Part shown: positions 52,939-61,424 of the stretch, one piece after another
Layout of the letters: each line of letters starts with the position of its first letter
Numbering within the stretch: position 1 is the first letter of the stretch
Source of the DNA: Methanococcoides methylutens MM1
GTDB lineage: Archaea; Halobacteriota; Methanosarcinia; Methanosarcinales; Methanosarcinaceae
DNA length: 64,000 bases
Direction: 5' to 3'
Assembly (NCBI RefSeq): GCF_000970325.1
Contig: NZ_CP009518.1
Coordinates: 1,488,001 to 1,552,000 of the forward strand
The notes under the pieces: model-generated
Told to the model about the DNA's origin: nothing
The model's input: only the letters and a program-made list of their open reading frames with translations
The model's database searches: none
Translations under genes and position numbers: made by a program

Positions 52939-55047
52939 TCATTCAGGAGACAAAGGAACACTAAAACCAAACGTGCTTCCAACACCGTGTTCACTTTCGA
53001 CCCAAACATTACCACCATGCATATCTACTAATTTTTTAACAAGGGAAAGGCCAAGACCTGTTCCTTCAAACTTGCGATTCGAAGCTGAATCCACCTGTGT
53101 AAAAGGATGAAATAGATTATCTTGTTCCGACCTTGGAATTCCAATGCCTGTATCTTCAACTTTGATGACTAAAGAGTTAGTATTCCTTTTGACCCTGATA
53201 ATTACTGAACCGTCATCAGGAGTGAACTTAATAGCATTTGAAACCAGATTGAAAATTACCTGCTTTAATTTTAACTTGTCAGCATTAATGCAAAAATTAT
53301 CAGATTCAACAATTGTATCCAGGAATAAGTCCTTGTGCTTCGCAAGAGGAGAAACAATTGACAATACTTCATCCAACATATCTAAAAATATGAATGTTTC
53401 ATAGTGAAGCTCCGCTTTACCAGCTTCTATCTTTGAAAGATCAAGAATATTATTAATAAGACTTAATAAATGCCTGCCACTCTTAGATATATTCGAAATA
53501 TATCTAATTTGTTTATCATTAAACAAACCTTCATCATTATAGAGAAGGATATCTGAAAATCCAATAATAGAGTTCAAAGGAGTACGAAGTTCATGGCTCA
53601 TATTAGCCAGGAATTCACTTTTTAATTTATTTGATGCCTCTGCGTTGGACTTTGCTTCTAAAAGGGCTTTTTCTATCTTTTTGCGTGCAGTTATATCTCT
53701 GGAAATGCTCAGAATAGCTACGTTACCATTATATTCGATAAAATGGGCGCTCATTTCAACTGGAATTTCAGATCCATCTTTTCGAAGATGTACCATTTCA
53801 AAGATGCACCCACCAGTATGGAAAAAATCAGTCATCTTTTTGTGGAAAACCGCCACACATTCCGGGCTGAATGTATCAAGTATGTTCTTCTTCAACAATG
53901 TGTCTCTTGTGTAACCTAGCCACTCACATAATTTGTCATTCACTTCATAAATATAACCCGTTAGATCGTAAAGGGAAACTGCATCATTTGAATGATCAAA
54001 GAGAGTTTTGAACCTTAGCTCTGTTTTTTTTAGAGCTTCTTCTGCAAGTTTCTTTTCGGTAATATCTACAATAATTCCCTGAAAACGAGTTGGTTGTCTG
54101 GAATTATCTAACTCTATAAGTGACGTTTCAGTTACCCACCGAATATTACGTTCAGAATCTATTATCCTATATTCTTTTGTAAATTCTGAGTTGCCATTTT
54201 TCATGCATTCAGAAAAGGACAAAAAATAATCAGAAACATCCTCAGAATGAATTATATCCTCATAAAGTACCTTATCAGACATTAGACATGCTGCTGAATA
54301 TCCAAACTGGGATATGTTCTCAGAAACGAATTCAACAGGAAAACCGTTTTCCGAGTTCCTGAGAAATGCCACCACCGGGCTGTTCCTATAGATCGATTTC
54401 AGCTCTTTTTCCTTCTTCATTAACTCGGGAGAAGTTCGCAGGTGTTTCCTGTACTTGCTACTGAGTTGATCTACCAGGTTGATCCACCCCCCTTCCGCCT
54501 TCATGATAATCTTTTCCCGATCATCCATCAATTCGAGAAACTCTGAAGAAGAAAAAGACTCAAGCGAGGAGGTAAATAAGGTAGTAAGATAGAAAACCGA
54601 ACTTAAGGAAATTATAGAATTTTGACACTCTCTTAGAAAAGGAAGCATCTCAACTTCATCTCTGATAAGATCGATATTGATACTCAATCCATTAAATCCA
54701 TTTTCAATAGCATATTTCTGTTTATTTTCTATAATTTCCATTATAGCATTGCAATATGCACCCGCATCAGAGAATAAATTTGGGTTAATAAGAACAAGAT
54801 CGAAATTGGGGGAACAGGAATTATGATCTTCATAGATTGCACTTTGCCTGAAAAGCTCACCCATGTTTTCATTATCTTTTGTCCCGGGAGTAAGCCAAAC
54901 ACATAGATCATGACGTTCAAAACCTGAAGCTAAGAAAGAGTGGACAAAATCAATTACATTGTCATCATCTTTATAAATAAGAGTGAGGTGTTCGCCGCAA
55001 GGAACATCTGATACAGGCAATTTGATTTTTCTTGAATATCCATACAT
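52939..55047 (-). CDS. MEDS-PAS-PAS sensor histidine kinase
   Basis: 702 residues, no transmembrane helices. The N-terminal MEDS domain (about 1-190; HLTLIYKDDDNVIDFVHSFL) is the sensory module of methanogens and methylotrophs. Two PAS domains (about 228-335 and 345-455) follow, then HisKA with MSHELRTPLNSI near 480 and HATPase with NLVSNAIKFT near 595, DTGIGIP near 633 and GTGLGLSL near 665. A soluble kinase with no receiver gene adjacent. The next gene upstream is a free MEDS protein 73 nt away. Confidence 0.92.
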   Translation of the reverse strand: MYGYSRKIKLPVSDVPCGEHLTLIYKDDDNVIDFVHSFLASGFERHDLCVWLTPGTKDNENMGELFRQSAIYEDHNSCSPNFDLVLINPNLFSDAGAYCNAIMEIIENKQKYAIENGFNGLSINIDLIRDEVEMLPFLRECQNSIISLSSVFYLTTLFTSSLESFSSSEFLELMDDREKIIMKAEGGWINLVDQLSSKYRKHLRTSPELMKKEKELKSIYRNSPVVAFLRNSENGFPVEFVSENISQFGYSAACLMSDKVLYEDIIHSEDVSDYFLSFSECMKNGNSEFTKEYRIIDSERNIRWVTETSLIELDNSRQPTRFQGIIVDITEKKLAEEALKKTELRFKTLFDHSNDAVSLYDLTGYIYEVNDKLCEWLGYTRDTLLKKNILDTFSPECVAVFHKKMTDFFHTGGCIFEMVHLRKDGSEIPVEMSAHFIEYNGNVAILSISRDITARKKIEKALLEAKSNAEASNKLKSEFLANMSHELRTPLNSIIGFSDILLYNDEGLFNDKQIRYISNISKSGRHLLSLINNILDLSKIEAGKAELHYETFIFLDMLDEVLSIVSPLAKHKDLFLDTIVESDNFCINADKLKLKQVIFNLVSNAIKFTPDDGSVIIRVKRNTNSLVIKVEDTGIGIPRSEQDNLFHPFTQVDSASNRKFEGTGLGLSLVKKLVDMHGGNVWVESEHGVGSTFGFSVPLSPE

Positions 55048-55120
55048 CCCATTAACACCTGAAAATCTTCAATAATAACAATCCATAACGTCCAATTTAA
55101 TGCTCATCGACTATTGTACT

Positions 55121-55750
55121 TCAACAAGTGTGTGAAAGAGAGCATTGCTTCATGCATTTGCTACTGACCATGTCCACCAGATCCGTCCACATTCCATTCG
55201 TTTTCAGGATCGTTTTTTCCCGGCCATCAGCCAGTTCAAGGACCTCTGAAGAGGATAATGAATCCATAGGGCATGTGAACAATGTTGTAAGGTCCATAGC
55301 TGAAGTTGAAGAGATAATAGATTCCCGGCACTGTTTGAGGAAAGGAAGCATTTGACCTTGATTTGTGATCAGGTCAACATTGATCCGCAGGCCATTAAAA
55401 CCGCTTTTAAGAACATATTTCTGCTTTTTTTCAATAAGTTCCAGTATAGAATTACAGAACAAACTCACATTTGAAAGTATTTCTGGATTTACAAGAACAA
55501 GATTGAAATTCGCAGAACAAGAATTATGGTTTACATAAATCGTATTTTCTTTGAAAATATTATCCGTATATTCTTTAGCTTTCATCCCAGGTGTAATCCA
55601 TACGCATAGATCGTTTCGCCTGAATCCGGACCTTAAAAAAGATGAAACAAAATCAAGTGCATCATCATCATTTTTATAAACCAGCGTTATATGGTCGCCA
55701 TGAGGAACGTCTGATATAGGCAAACCAATTTTCCTTGAATGTTCCTTCAT
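55121..55750 (-). CDS. Stand-alone MEDS-domain protein (truncated kinase paralogue)
   Basis: About 209 residues from ATG 55750, preceded by AAAGGTGT; the frame is open to 55792. Clearly paralogous to residues 1-200 of the kinase at 52939 (HSRKIGLPISDVPHGDHITL versus YSRKIKLPVSDVPCGEHLTL), but it stops in a Cys-rich tail (CMKQCSLSHTC) before the kinase part. Either a functional free sensor domain that could dimerise with the kinase or a recently truncated copy. Confidence 0.8.
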   Translation of the reverse strand: MKEHSRKIGLPISDVPHGDHITLVYKNDDDALDFVSSFLRSGFRRNDLCVWITPGMKAKEYTDNIFKENTIYVNHNSCSANFNLVLVNPEILSNVSLFCNSILELIEKKQKYVLKSGFNGLRINVDLITNQGQMLPFLKQCRESIISSTSAMDLTTLFTCPMDSLSSSEVLELADGREKTILKTNGMWTDLVDMVSSKCMKQCSLSHTC

Positions 55751-56003
55751 GCCTTTTAACACCTTTTTTTGGATCCAAACCATCTGTAGCAACTAAATTA
55801 CGTGAGTGAAAGCAATTGTTGATTAAAACAAATTAACTTTATATCCGACAAGTTCGACTGTAAAACAGCATTATATATAAAAGTTACCCATCGGAGTAAG
55901 GTATATCATCATTTATACAAACGAAGTGGCAAAAGAATCATTGAAAATAACTCAAATATAACATTCCGAAATCATAATAACCCATCCAGACTATCCAATA
56001 GCT

Positions 56004-56516
56004 ATGTCCCTCTTATCAAAAAATGAACTTAAAGAGCTTGTACTTGCGAATCCGCCTCTTGTAGAGAACATGATCGACATGGATATCCAGCTCCAGCCCA
56101 ATGGTGTGGAAATGACACTTCAGGAGGTCAGGAGCATTGATGGAGCAGGAGCAGTGGACTTTGACAATTCAGGAAGGAAGATATCAGGTGGGAAAAGGAT
56201 CGAATTCGATGAGAACGGCTGGATACACCTCGACCCCGGCATATACAAGGTCCTTTTGAATGAGGTCGTCAACATACCGAAGACACTGGCAGCGATCGCT
56301 AAACCCCGTTCCAGCCTTATCAGGTGCGGAGCCACCCTTGAAACTGCTGTATGGGATGCAGGATATTGTGGAAGGAGCGAATGCATGCTTGTAGTACACA
56401 ATTCCGCAGGGTTCGATCTTCAGAAAGATGCACGTATAATGCAGCTTCTTTTCTACCACCTTCACACAGAAGTGGAAGAAGGTTATTGTGGAAGATACCA
56501 GCATGAGAATATCTGA
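56004..56516 (+). CDS. dut: Archaeal-type dUTP diphosphatase (dCTP deaminase/dUTPase family)
   Basis: 170 residues. QLQPNGVEMTLQEV near residue 31 and KPRSSLIRCGATLETAVWDAGY near 100-120 (split here by family blocks) hold the nucleotide site, with AGFDLQKDARIMQLLF near 140. It removes dUTP and supplies dUMP. TATATATAA at 55872-55880 is a good TATA box, giving a leader of about 100 nt. A decayed second copy lies at 57801. Confidence 0.9.
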   Translation: MSLLSKNELKELVLANPPLVENMIDMDIQLQPNGVEMTLQEVRSIDGAGAVDFDNSGRKISGGKRIEFDENGWIHLDPGIYKVLLNEVVNIPKTLAAIAKPRSSLIRCGATLETAVWDAGYCGRSECMLVVHNSAGFDLQKDARIMQLLFYHLHTEVEEGYCGRYQHENI

Positions 56517-57800: not shown

Positions 57801-57998
57801 TTATGAAGAAAAGATCTTCGAGAGCTTGTACTTGCAACCCCCCTCTTTTGAAGAACATAATTAATATGGACACCCAGCTTCAGCCCAATGGTGTGGAGAT
57901 TACCCTTCAGAAGGTCAGGACCATTGAGGGTGCAGGGGCATTCACGCAGAAGTGGAAGAAACATGTTGTGGAAGATAACAGCATGATAATCTCTGACA
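57801..57998 (+). pseudogene. dut: Decayed second copy of dut
   Basis: Nucleotide similarity to 56015-56518 runs from the start codon region through QLQPNGVEITLQKV, then jumps by internal deletion of about 300 nt to the last codons (GAAGTGGAAGAA...) and past the stop. A one-base deletion near 57835 also shifts the frame. No product expected. Confidence 0.85.
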
Positions 57999-58055
57999 TG
58001 ACAATAAGTAACACCTACGCAAAGGATATGTAATATAATAGGAATCTCCCGTAGC

Positions 58056-58847
58056 ATGAGTGAAATTGGCAAATCTGTCAGGATGGAGCGTATTTTCGAC
58101 AGAAATACGGGTAATGCTATAATAATACCAATGGACCATGGTGTCGGTGCAGGACCTATCAAAGGTCTGATCGACATGCCATCAACCGTAAATAAGGTTG
58201 CAGAGGGCGGTGCAAATGCTGTCCTTGGCCACATGGGACTTGCAAAACACGGGCACCGTGGCTATGGAAGGGATGTAGGACTTATCATTCATCTCTCCGG
58301 TTCCACTGCACTGGGACCTGATCCAAACCACAAGGTCCTTGTCACAACCGTTGAGGAAGCTATAAAGGTCGGTGCAGATGCGGTCTCTGTCCACATCAAC
58401 GTCGGTGCAGATGATGAAGCGGAAATGCTCCAGGATCTCGGATATACCGCAAAGAAATGTGACGAGTGGGGAATGCCACTTCTGGCAATGACATACCCAA
58501 GAGGTGCAAAAGTTGTATCCGAGACTGACGTGGAATACGTGAAGCACGCAGCAAGGGTTGGTGCTGAACTTGGTGCTGACATCGTCAAGACAAGCTACAC
58601 TGGCGACCCTGATTCTTTCAAAGAGGTAATTGACGGCTGTCCGGTCCCTGTAGTGATTGCAGGCGGTCCACAGATGGACACCGAAAAGGAGATACTTGAA
58701 ATGGTCTACGATGCACTTCAGGTCGGCTGCAAGGGTGTCGCAATGGGCAGGAATGTGTTCCAGTCCGATAATACAACAAGACTTGTGACCAGGATCTCAA
58801 AGGTCGTCCACGGCGAAATGACAGCAGACGAAGCCATGGAAGACTAA
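58056..58847 (+). CDS. aroA': 2-amino-3,7-dideoxy-D-threo-hept-6-ulosonate synthase (DhnA-type aldolase)
   Basis: 263 residues of the archaeal class I aldolase family. [10 protein letters not shown] near residue 25, the Schiff-base Lys in [10 protein letters not shown] near 178, and VIAGGP near 200 and [10 protein letters not shown] near 230 form the phosphate site. It begins the archaeal route to dehydroquinate and aromatic amino acids; a fructose-bisphosphate aldolase role is the alternative. The usual partner aroB' is not adjacent. The first codon lies 58 nt after the dut remnant. Confidence 0.88.
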
Positions 58848-58899: not shown

Positions 58900-58993
58900 A
58901 TTTACGAATATTTATGACATGAAATCCGGGATATAGCTTTGGCTATAATATATGAATAGATTTACAGGGAGAAATGGATAGAATAAAAAGGAT

Positions 58994-59066
58994 AGCAAGA
59001 TCGGTGATGGAATAACCAACAAAATCAGTTAGTAGTGGTGGTACAATATGATTTTACGATCTTGCT
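58994..59066 (-). ncRNA. Candidate small RNA, copy 1 of a tandem pair
   Basis: On the minus strand a 10-bp outer stem is formed by AGCAAGATCG (59066-59057) and CGATCTTGCT (59003-58994). Inside, AAAATCA pairs with TGATTTT around an ACCACCAC-containing loop. TATATATAA (59098-59090) lies about 28 nt upstream and TTTTT (58989-58985) lies just downstream. Promoter, structure and terminator together suggest a 70-85 nt transcript. The middle part is conserved in copy 2. Confidence 0.65.
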
Positions 59067-59089
59067 CGACTACTAGAATATATTATTTA

Positions 59090-59098
59090 TTATATATA
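59090..59098 (-). promoter_or_regulatory. TATA box of small RNA copy 1
   Basis: TATATATAA on the minus strand, centred about 28 nt before the RNA stem, the normal archaeal distance. Confidence 0.6.
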
Positions 59099-59255
59099 AC
59101 TTCCGAAATCGTTTTTATGTTCCTATAAATAAAAAAATAGGATTTTAATCCAGGCATTAAATTAAGTTCGAAAAAGATTCTATAGAACCAGAATTCATCT
59201 TTGAGCAAAGATCCAGAGCTAAAAAACTGAAGATAAGAAAGGAATGAAGAGTAAT

Positions 59256-59334
59256 AGCAAGACCGTGATGGAATGACCAATAAAAAATCAGTTTGTGGTG
59301 GTGGTGGTACGATATGATTTTCTTCGGCCTTGCC
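59256..59334 (-). ncRNA. Candidate small RNA, copy 2 of a tandem pair
   Basis: The outer stem GGCAAGGCCG (59334-59325) pairs fully with CGGTCTTGCT (59265-59256), using two G-U pairs. One position has changed from U-A in copy 1 to C-G here, a compensatory change. The inner AAAATCA/TGATTTT helix and the loop GTACCACCACCACCAC are kept, as is TTGGTCATTCCATCA in the 3' part. A TATA box (59367-59359) lies about 29 nt upstream. Confidence 0.65.
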
Positions 59335-59358
59335 TAAATACTACTATAAAGTAGATAG

Positions 59359-59367
59359 TATATAAAA
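59359..59367 (-). promoter_or_regulatory. TATA box of small RNA copy 2
   Basis: TTTTATATA on the minus strand at the same distance from its stem as in copy 1. Confidence 0.55.
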
Positions 59368-59512: not shown

Positions 59513-60301
59513 TCAGATACCAATACCAATATTAAGTTGCTTAAGTGGCATAACATAAGGCGTTTCTGCATGACTATGTACGCGCGCTTCAACTCCATAG
59601 ACCTTTGCTATGTTCTCAGTTGTAAGGACCTCACAAGGCTCACCTGCAGAAACAACTTTACCATCTTTCATCATCAGGATCTGATCGGAATATCTGGAAG
59701 CCAAATTCAGGTCGTGTACAGCCATTAAGGCTGTGACCTTCTTTTCCTTTACAAGCTTTTGCACGCTCTCCATGACATCCAGTTGATGCCAGATATCCAG
59801 ATTGCTGGTGGGTTCATCAAGTAGAATAACACCTGTATCCTGTGCAAGTGCCCTTGCAATAAGGATCTTTTGTTGCTGACCACCGCTCAGTTCATCAAAA
59901 CTACATAAGGCAAGATCATCAATACCCATTTCCTCAAGCACCTGCCAGACCTTTTCCTTGTCCTCTTCATTACTGAACCAGCCAATATGCGGCCTTCTTC
60001 CCATCAATACAGTCTCAAAGACCGTTGTAGGAAATACCCTGTTAGAACTCTGGGGAACATAAGCAAGATTCCTTGCAATTTCCATACGCTTCATGTTTTT
60101 CAAATTGCATTCATTGATGTGTATATCGCCTGAATCAGGCATCAATATCTTGTTCATGCATTTTAGCATAGTCGATTTGCCAGCCCCGTTGGGACCTACA
60201 AGACTAACAAAGCTTGATCTGTGGATATCAACAGACACATCTTTCAATATTGGTGTACTGGCATAGCCAAAACACATGTCTTTGATCTTTACTTTCACCA
60301 T
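59513..60301 (-). CDS. ABC importer ATP-binding protein (iron-chelate/cobalamin type)
   Basis: About 262 residues from ATG 60301, preceded by AAGGAG; the frame is open further upstream. Walker A GPNGAGKST near residue 36, signature LSGGQQQKILIARAL near 138, Walker B VILLDEPTSNLD near 158, His switch AVHDLNLA near 190. FecE/BtuD/FhuC type. Starts just after the permease stop (TAA-t-ATG), so it is coupled to it. Confidence 0.92.
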   Translation of the reverse strand: MVKVKIKDMCFGYASTPILKDVSVDIHRSSFVSLVGPNGAGKSTMLKCMNKILMPDSGDIHINECNLKNMKRMEIARNLAYVPQSSNRVFPTTVFETVLMGRRPHIGWFSNEEDKEKVWQVLEEMGIDDLALCSFDELSGGQQQKILIARALAQDTGVILLDEPTSNLDIWHQLDVMESVQKLVKEKKVTALMAVHDLNLASRYSDQILMMKDGKVVSAGEPCEVLTTENIAKVYGVEARVHSHAETPYVMPLKQLNIGIGI

Positions 60302-60302
60302 A

Positions 60303-61424
60303 TTACCAGAACTCCTTCTTTTTCTTTTTAAGTATAAGATACATGAAGAAAGGCACTCCAAGCAGAGATGTCATAATGCCCGTCGGTATCATTGTGGGTC
60401 TGAGTATATTCATACCGGTAGCATCCGCTGAGATCAATATGAGAGCTCCAAGCAGACCGGATGCAGGGAACAGGTATTTGTGGTCCGAACCTATGACCAT
60501 GCGTGCCATATGGGGTGCAACCAGTCCTATAAAAGCGATAGTTCCCGTAAAACAGACTACAGTCGCTATAAGAAGACTGGCAAGAAGCATACTGAACATT
60601 CTTACCCGGTTTGCATCTATACCAAGGCTTTTAGCGTTTTCATCACCGATTGCCATTATATTCAGATCGTTTGCCTTCAGGTAGAGTAAAGGTGTGCAAA
60701 AAACAAATACACCAAGCAGAAGTGCAAAGTTGCTCCATGAAAAAGCGGACAGGTCACCCATACCCCAGCTTACCATAACTCTCAATTGTTCATCCGTTGC
60801 AAAATAGCGGAAAAGGTCACTGAGGGATCCAAAAAGATAATTTATCGCAATACCTGCAAGGATCAGGGTTTCGGAAGTTGCACCTTTAAAGCTTGCAAGC
60901 GCAATTATGAACAGTGCACATAACATTGCAAAAAGGAAGGCATTTCCCACCATAAGATATGGACCTCCAATAACACCTACCCCCATCACAGCTGCCACTG
61001 CCACACCAAAATTAGCCCCTGAAGAGATACCCAGAGTGAAGGGACTTGCAAGCGGGTTCTTAAGTACCGCCTGCATTACACAACCGCAGATACCCAGCCC
61101 GAAACCTGCCATTATACCGGCAACGATACGTGGAAGACGAATATTCCATACGATCTGTGAAGGTAACTCTTCACTCACAAAATAACCGGGAAATAAACTG
61201 GAGATCAATATTTTGTATACATCCGGAATTGAAATATCAAGCGGACCGATTGTAACTATAAAAGCTGAAAGTAAGGTTACCAGAACTAACATTGAAACAA
61301 GGAAAACAAGTTTTTTCCCCACATAACGATGGTAACTTTCCCTTACCTGAGTATTCGTCCCTGAACATGGAATGTCAGTATCTTCCAATCCGGAATCACG
61401 TTGTTTCTTGAAAATGTTTTGCAT
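60303..61424 (-). CDS. ABC importer permease (FecCD/BtuC type)
   Basis: About 373 residues from ATG 61424 with GGTGAG just upstream; the frame is open to 61466. About nine to ten transmembrane helices. RLPRIVAGIMAGFGLGICG near 95 and the coupling-helix region GLVAPHMARMVIGSDHKYLFP near 290 are typical of FecCD permeases for siderophores, haem or cobalamin. Confidence 0.93.
   Translation of the reverse strand: MQNIFKKQRDSGLEDTDIPCSGTNTQVRESYHRYVGKKLVFLVSMLVLVTLLSAFIVTIGPLDISIPDVYKILISSLFPGYFVSEELPSQIVWNIRLPRIVAGIMAGFGLGICGCVMQAVLKNPLASPFTLGISSGANFGVAVAAVMGVGVIGGPYLMVGNAFLFAMLCALFIIALASFKGATSETLILAGIAINYLFGSLSDLFRYFATDEQLRVMVSWGMGDLSAFSWSNFALLLGVFVFCTPLLYLKANDLNIMAIGDENAKSLGIDANRVRMFSMLLASLLIATVVCFTGTIAFIGLVAPHMARMVIGSDHKYLFPASGLLGALILISADATGMNILRPTMIPTGIMTSLLGVPFFMYLILKKKKKEFW

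Follow-up and report, generated by a model that had tools for sequence, protein, structure and literature searches.

Results

Two tandem RNA elements in the window

The window, a 64,000-nucleotide stretch of the Methanococcoides methylutens MM1 genome, carries two short elements, copies A and B, which lie in tandem on the minus strand about 190 nt apart, between the genes for an aldolase and an ABC transporter ATPase (Table 1). Both share a common plan that consists of a TATA box, a ten-pair outer stem (P1), an inner helix and a C-rich loop, and both were located where the first-pass annotation had placed two elements of the same plan. The differences that it had described between the two outer stems, one U-A to C-G change on both sides and two A-U to G-U changes, were confirmed. 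The sequence also agrees with its proposal that each copy has its own promoter, in that a putative TATA box is correctly spaced in both copies and homologues also carry a TATA element upstream. A T/C-rich flank like that of copy A likewise follows the homologues. The predicted folding of copies A and B was better than that of all 200 dinucleotide shuffles made of each (z scores in Table 1). A short open reading frame runs across copy A (59083-59280); it is unsupported because the length of the element differs between homologues by non-multiples of three.

Table 1. Features of the two RNA elements and of their neighbors in the window.
Feature	Position	Strand	Remarks
sRNA copy A, ~80 nt	59255..59336	-	R2 83 bits, E 1.2e-13 in own genome; fold z -3.6
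sRNA copy B, ~75 nt	58993..59067	-	R2 76 bits, E 3.3e-12; fold z -4.9
Outer stem P1 5' arm, copy A	59325..59334	-	pairs with 59256-59265
Outer stem P1 3' arm, copy A	59256..59265	-	pairs with 59334-59325
Outer stem P1 5' arm, copy B	59057..59066	-	pairs with 58994-59003
Outer stem P1 3' arm, copy B	58994..59003	-	pairs with 59066-59057
Conserved exposed loop AUAUCGUACCACC, copy A, predicted antisense seed	59303..59315	-	near-invariant across genera
Loop AUAUUGUACCACC, copy B, one C-to-U change	59037..59049	-	from sequence
TATA box TTTATATA, copy A	59359..59366	-	center 26 nt upstream of stem
TATA box TATATATA, copy B	59091..59098	-	center 27 nt upstream of stem
Pyrimidine-rich 3' flank, copy A	59225..59253	-	probable termination region, from sequence
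Pyrimidine-rich 3' flank, copy B	58965..58991	-	probable termination region, from sequence
DeoC/LacD-family aldolase	58056..58847	+	Pfam DeoC 9.7e-69; convergent neighbor, conserved across genera
ABC transporter ATPase, FecCD-type block	59513..60361	-	promoter-side neighbor in window

In nearly all genomes the RNA is found between glyS, which is divergent, and the convergent DeoC/LacD aldolase gene, with a dCTP deaminase-like gene next after the aldolase. The glyS neighbor was named from its own sequence, and its start is typically about 180-190 nt from the RNA. In the window genome and in G008 a FecCD/ABC transporter block occupies the glyS side. The glyS gene of the window genome lies about 7.5 kb off, beyond this block, and the RNA is nevertheless retained, which shows that it is independent of glyS adjacency. 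Next to the aldolase gene in the window, positions 57803-58033 duplicate part of the dCTP deaminase-like gene (56004-56516) and look like a remnant. Farther away (52939-55792) stand tandem sensor-kinase-type genes with a common N-terminal SRKIGLPISDVPHGDHITLVYKNDDD block.

An RNA family of the Methanosarcinaceae

Searched at the DNA level, each of the ten other genomes of the genus yielded copies, and other genera yielded weaker ones. We built a covariance model, R2, from an alignment (A4) of 17 diverse members. At a cut-off of E <= 0.01, R2 matched 58 of 112 Methanosarcinaceae genomes, and the matched genomes represent 7 of 14 genera. A stem-plus-loop pattern, made of both stem ends and the loop, was screened over 84,980 species and gave 36 contig stretches, all of them from Methanosarcinaceae (Methanococcoides, Methanolobus, Methanomethylovorans, Methanohalophilus and unclassified members). 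The genomes have one to five copies each; R2 detected one in G077, four form a single intergenic cluster in G006, and further loci in Methanohalophilus carry additional copies. In the genera that lack the RNA, R2 gave no significant match with lax filters and no convincing match with the filters off beside glyS.

Homologues with stem covariation are thus present through much of the Methanosarcinaceae. The first-pass annotation had known of no named family with this plan, and the comparison with Rfam 15 agrees, since nothing scored above the gathering threshold and the sole sub-threshold match (E 1.6) was on the opposite strand. It had also reckoned with the elements turning out to be a mobile repeat, which did not materialize, given the conserved glyS/aldolase synteny and a search of viral contigs and plasmids that returned no match to the RNA pattern. 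By these comparisons, the RNA is a previously unnamed family common to related methanogens.

The outer stem covaries and the loop is exposed

Over 61 distinct sequences, 98.9% of the P1 pairings are standard and six of the nine pairs show double changes, an amount of covariation that was reached by none of 500 shuffles. G-U pairs are common in the stem and are compatible with the minus strand alone. P1 keeps a GCAAG/CUUGC sequence besides its pairing, and the inner helix varies between genera in both sequence and register. The compensatory changes, which had been seen between the two window copies and are found family-wide, show that the RNA structure is under selection. The loop CAUAUCGUACCACC is near-invariant across genera, and its CGUACCACC part has a mean unpaired probability of 0.82 over the 61 members.

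One detail of the initial description did not hold. The 3' segment TTGGT had been called conserved, and a TTGG-type segment is found in only about 8 of the 17 diverse members; a pseudoknot between TTGGT and an ACCA loop had been suggested, and TTGGT varies without compensation. The pseudoknot is therefore not a feature of the family.

Other hairpins that present related loops were also noticed. Two Methanolobus loci (L269:1283 and L276:1561) have the same loop CAUAUCGUACCACC on an outer stem that is wholly replaced (GGCCGGG/CCGGCC), and may be divergent relatives or convergent copies. At L183:1990 in Methanolobus G075, another hairpin (AACTAG/CTAGTT) presents ATATCGTACCACC and may be a further relative.

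The loop is complementary to translation starts

The reverse complement of the loop, GGTGGTACGATATG, resembles a Shine-Dalgarno sequence followed by a five-base spacer and ATG; that is, the loop complements GGUGGUACGAUAUG, a Shine-Dalgarno sequence plus start codon. In a first pattern search over ten genomes, exact 13-mers outside the RNA loci were found in Methanolobus, two or three per genome. We then used a wobble-aware pattern, GGTGGTRYRRTATG, which ends in ATG, with the reversed pattern as a control. The 62 genomes of RNA-bearing genera gave 211 matches (about 90 of them the RNA copies themselves) against 10 for the control, and the 50 genomes of RNA-lacking genera gave 3 against 5. Besides chance matches, the sites are of three kinds: the RNA itself, translation starts and a recurrent longer RNA of Methanolobus. 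In this sequence test, loop complements at the ribosome-binding site (RBS) and start of unlinked mRNAs exceed chance, and the excess of such sites in RNA-bearing genera supports the earlier suggestion that the C-rich loop could target G-rich ribosome sites.

At the start sites the ATG stands exactly at +11, and the encoded proteins have N-terminal signal-like sequences and DUF11, DUF7507, PKD, SdrD_B, lactonase-like propeller or DUF3344 domains, which are typical of secreted or surface proteins; the genes are adhesin-like. Such sites were found in Methanococcoides, Methanolobus, Methanohalophilus (L264-L266) and one further genus (L260). Two paralogous start-site genes lie at L167 in G006, and a 75%-identical relative is present in Methanolobus G085 (L286). 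The GGTGGTACAATATG targets in G006 have a one-base mismatch to the loop, and G006 has only C-type loops. Ahead of the real start of the Methanohalophilus surface-protein gene at L266, the leader (1340-1500) repeats the RBS/start-like GGTGGYRCGRTATGAAWGCTGC about four times. A small CxxC protein (MELVKVKCKNCGGEM...) has an exactly complementary start (L254:1205, L257:1634); in G002 and G003 its gene directly follows one for a surface-protein homologue.

Two other start matches were set aside. The mtrG start GGTGGTGTAATATG (L253, L255, L256, L258) is conserved in Methanococcoides and complements the loop of copy B with wobbles; it overlaps the mtrF coding sequence and is a probable coincidence. 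A match ahead of the gene for ribosomal protein L10 is also probably a coding coincidence.

Surface-protein homologues in Methanococcoides

None of the surface-gene starts of the window genome was an exact complement of the loop, and orthologues of the G006 propeller targets were absent. A search of this genome with a 15-mer allowing up to three mismatches gave mostly chance-level matches, and an RBS-only pattern was therefore used. It pointed to a gene for a secreted protein of 393 aa (G000:C1:1863866-), PKD/DUF11-like by eye, which is the best candidate in this genome and whose pairing with the loop has an internal mismatch. By eye, its N terminus is like those of the Methanohalophilus targets at L265 and L266, which are related to each other.

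For most target sites the match itself was the means of discovery, which makes their pairing energies partly circular. We used G000:C1:1863866- as a protein query and then read the start regions of its homologues. All 12 Methanococcoides N-terminal homologues (the query included) had starts complementary to the loop of copy A, with energies of -17.6 to -27.2 kcal/mol (median -23.3 kcal/mol) and z scores of -3.8 to -8.4 versus shuffles. In comparison, 51 window genes had a median of -12.8 kcal/mol, with the best of up to four starts taken for each (Mann-Whitney P 3e-7, the 12 homologues being related and non-independent). The start of the G006 homologue, GGUGGUAC-AUAUGAA, is complementary but for one bulged loop base.

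Longer RNAs of Methanolobus display the loop complement

The exact 13-nt complements in Methanolobus are mostly longer RNAs. These occur in Methanolobus and one relative, have a predicted length of about 180 nt, their own TATA element and a common upstream block, ATGATRCTCATNATATA, and present GGUGGUACGAUAUG within a small hairpin, where the GGUGGUACG portion is left partly unpaired. Loci in Methanolobus include L283:1289, L278:1258, L193:2060, L200:2028 and L201:2064, where the hairpin GGUGGUACGAUAUGG is the exact loop complement. The pattern of the promoter block had one site in genome G077. A comparison of the longer RNAs with Rfam gave no match, and the same patterns did not find them in Methanococcoides or Methanohalophilus. 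Judged from these complements, the longer RNAs are possibly sponges for the sRNA.

Discussion

The conservation of the family, the covariation of its stem, its synteny, the exposure of its loop and an excess of complementary sites, many of them at starts, only in the genera that bear it are observations. Because the loop is complementary to the RBS and start codon of surface-protein mRNAs, it probably blocks translation, and we consider it likely that the locus holds a tandem pair of genes whose product, a trans-acting sRNA, masks the RBS and start codon of such mRNAs and represses their translation. Each gene would be transcribed from its own TATA promoter, and the outer and inner stems would hold up the loop CAUAUCGUACCACC. 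The loop would pair with mRNA starts of the form GGUGG(U)-N5-AUG, roughly, and the duplex would cover the Shine-Dalgarno sequence and the start codon together, so that translation would be repressed. The predicted regulon consists mainly of secreted adhesin-like surface proteins (PKD, DUF11, DUF7507, SdrD_B, beta-propeller, DUF3344). The outcome may instead be activation or stabilization, although the position of the pairing predicts repression, and the GGTGG-rich starts could simply be the RBS habit of these surface genes.

The strong conservation of the loop across genera, stronger than antisense seeds often show, and the retention of the GCAAG/CUUGC sequence as well as pairing in the outer stem would also suit a structural or protein-bound RNA, whose loop docks an RNA-binding protein or a ribosomal component and whose matches to mRNAs are secondary. 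We regard this as rather unlikely, since it explains neither the restriction of frequent complementary sites to sRNA-bearing genera nor the complementary starts of homologous surface genes; moreover, at L269 and L276 the stem sequence is replaced and the loop stays. The position between glyS and the aldolase gene, conserved in nearly all genomes, and the complementarity of the C-rich loop to glycine GGU codons raise the question of a leader, attenuator or antisense regulator acting in cis on one of the two genes. The sRNA is not a glyS leader, because it is divergent from glyS and its G-U pairs demand its own strand; read as a plus-strand leader, they would turn into A-C mismatches. Control in cis of either gene seems quite improbable, as the sRNA persists in the window genome where glyS is separated from it and the Methanohalophilus copies lie at other loci.

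In Methanolobus, where most exact complements are the longer RNAs, with their own TATA element and upstream block and absent from Rfam, these RNAs displaying GGUGGUACGAUAUG might be the main partner of the sRNA and the effects on mRNAs indirect. As the sRNA is equally conserved in Methanococcoides and Methanohalophilus, where no longer RNAs were found by the same patterns, this seems very improbable. The tandem arrangement, with four copies in G006, is what mobile or repetitive DNA (MITE or REP-like) devoid of an RNA function would also produce; already disfavored above, this reading is hardly credible beside a synteny that is fixed across genera, only one to five copies per genome, the lack of matches among plasmids and viruses, covariation that is strand-specific and a loop complementary to start sites.

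The longer RNAs of Methanolobus point to a possible RNA sponge in archaea. In Methanolobus psychrophilus, nine conserved sRNAs that carry a "cold box" are reported to be induced by cold (PMC5378194). The longer RNAs found here are also from Methanolobus and share an upstream promoter block, and the likeness is only a lead. We tentatively propose, as an idea that is more doubtful than the repression itself, a two-RNA circuit that sets the surface coat of methylotrophic methanogens, in which the sRNA represses, the longer RNA acts as its sponge, and control is possibly by cold.

To our knowledge, few archaeal trans-acting sRNAs have known targets. The present family offers a clear, testable predicted regulon and a short loop open to mutation, and its distribution separates the genera of one archaeal family into those that have it and those that lack it. 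Masking of an RBS is not a new mode in archaea, because sRNA154 and sRNA41 are known to do so in Methanosarcina (PMC5867862); what does appear new is the present family, together with the genera that bear it and its predicted regulon of surface proteins.

Loop 2 of sRNA154 of Methanosarcina mazei is reported to mask the RBS of the glnA2 mRNA, and this sRNA has a nitrogen-fixation regulon and is reported to be conserved in Methanosarcina (PMC5867862). Both it and the present sRNA are structured intergenic archaeal sRNAs; by its description sRNA154 is set apart from the latter, which was undetected in the Methanosarcina-like genomes tested. For sRNA41 of M. mazei, translational repression of ACDS mRNAs is reported, and a title cited in the same review mentions an RBS within polycistronic mRNAs (PMC5867862). 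The present sRNA differs from it in its predicted secreted surface-protein targets, its one short loop and its genera. Also trans-acting is the archaeal sRNA162 of M. mazei, whose primary transcript of 191 nt has three stem loops and a single-stranded linker of 39 nt; its homologues are reported in Methanosarcina only (PMC3510493). R2 found no significant homologue of the present sRNA in Methanosarcina-like genomes, nor beside their glyS.

In bacteria, outer-membrane sRNAs such as MicA, RybB and OmrA/B each rely on one conserved seed to pair with many surface-protein mRNAs, at the RBS or close to it. There is no homology between these and the present sRNA, whose seed sits in a hairpin loop, but the working mode is the same as that predicted here. 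If the prediction is true, archaea would have, in cultured organisms such as Methanococcoides and Methanolobus, an equivalent of the sRNAs by which bacteria shape their outer surface.
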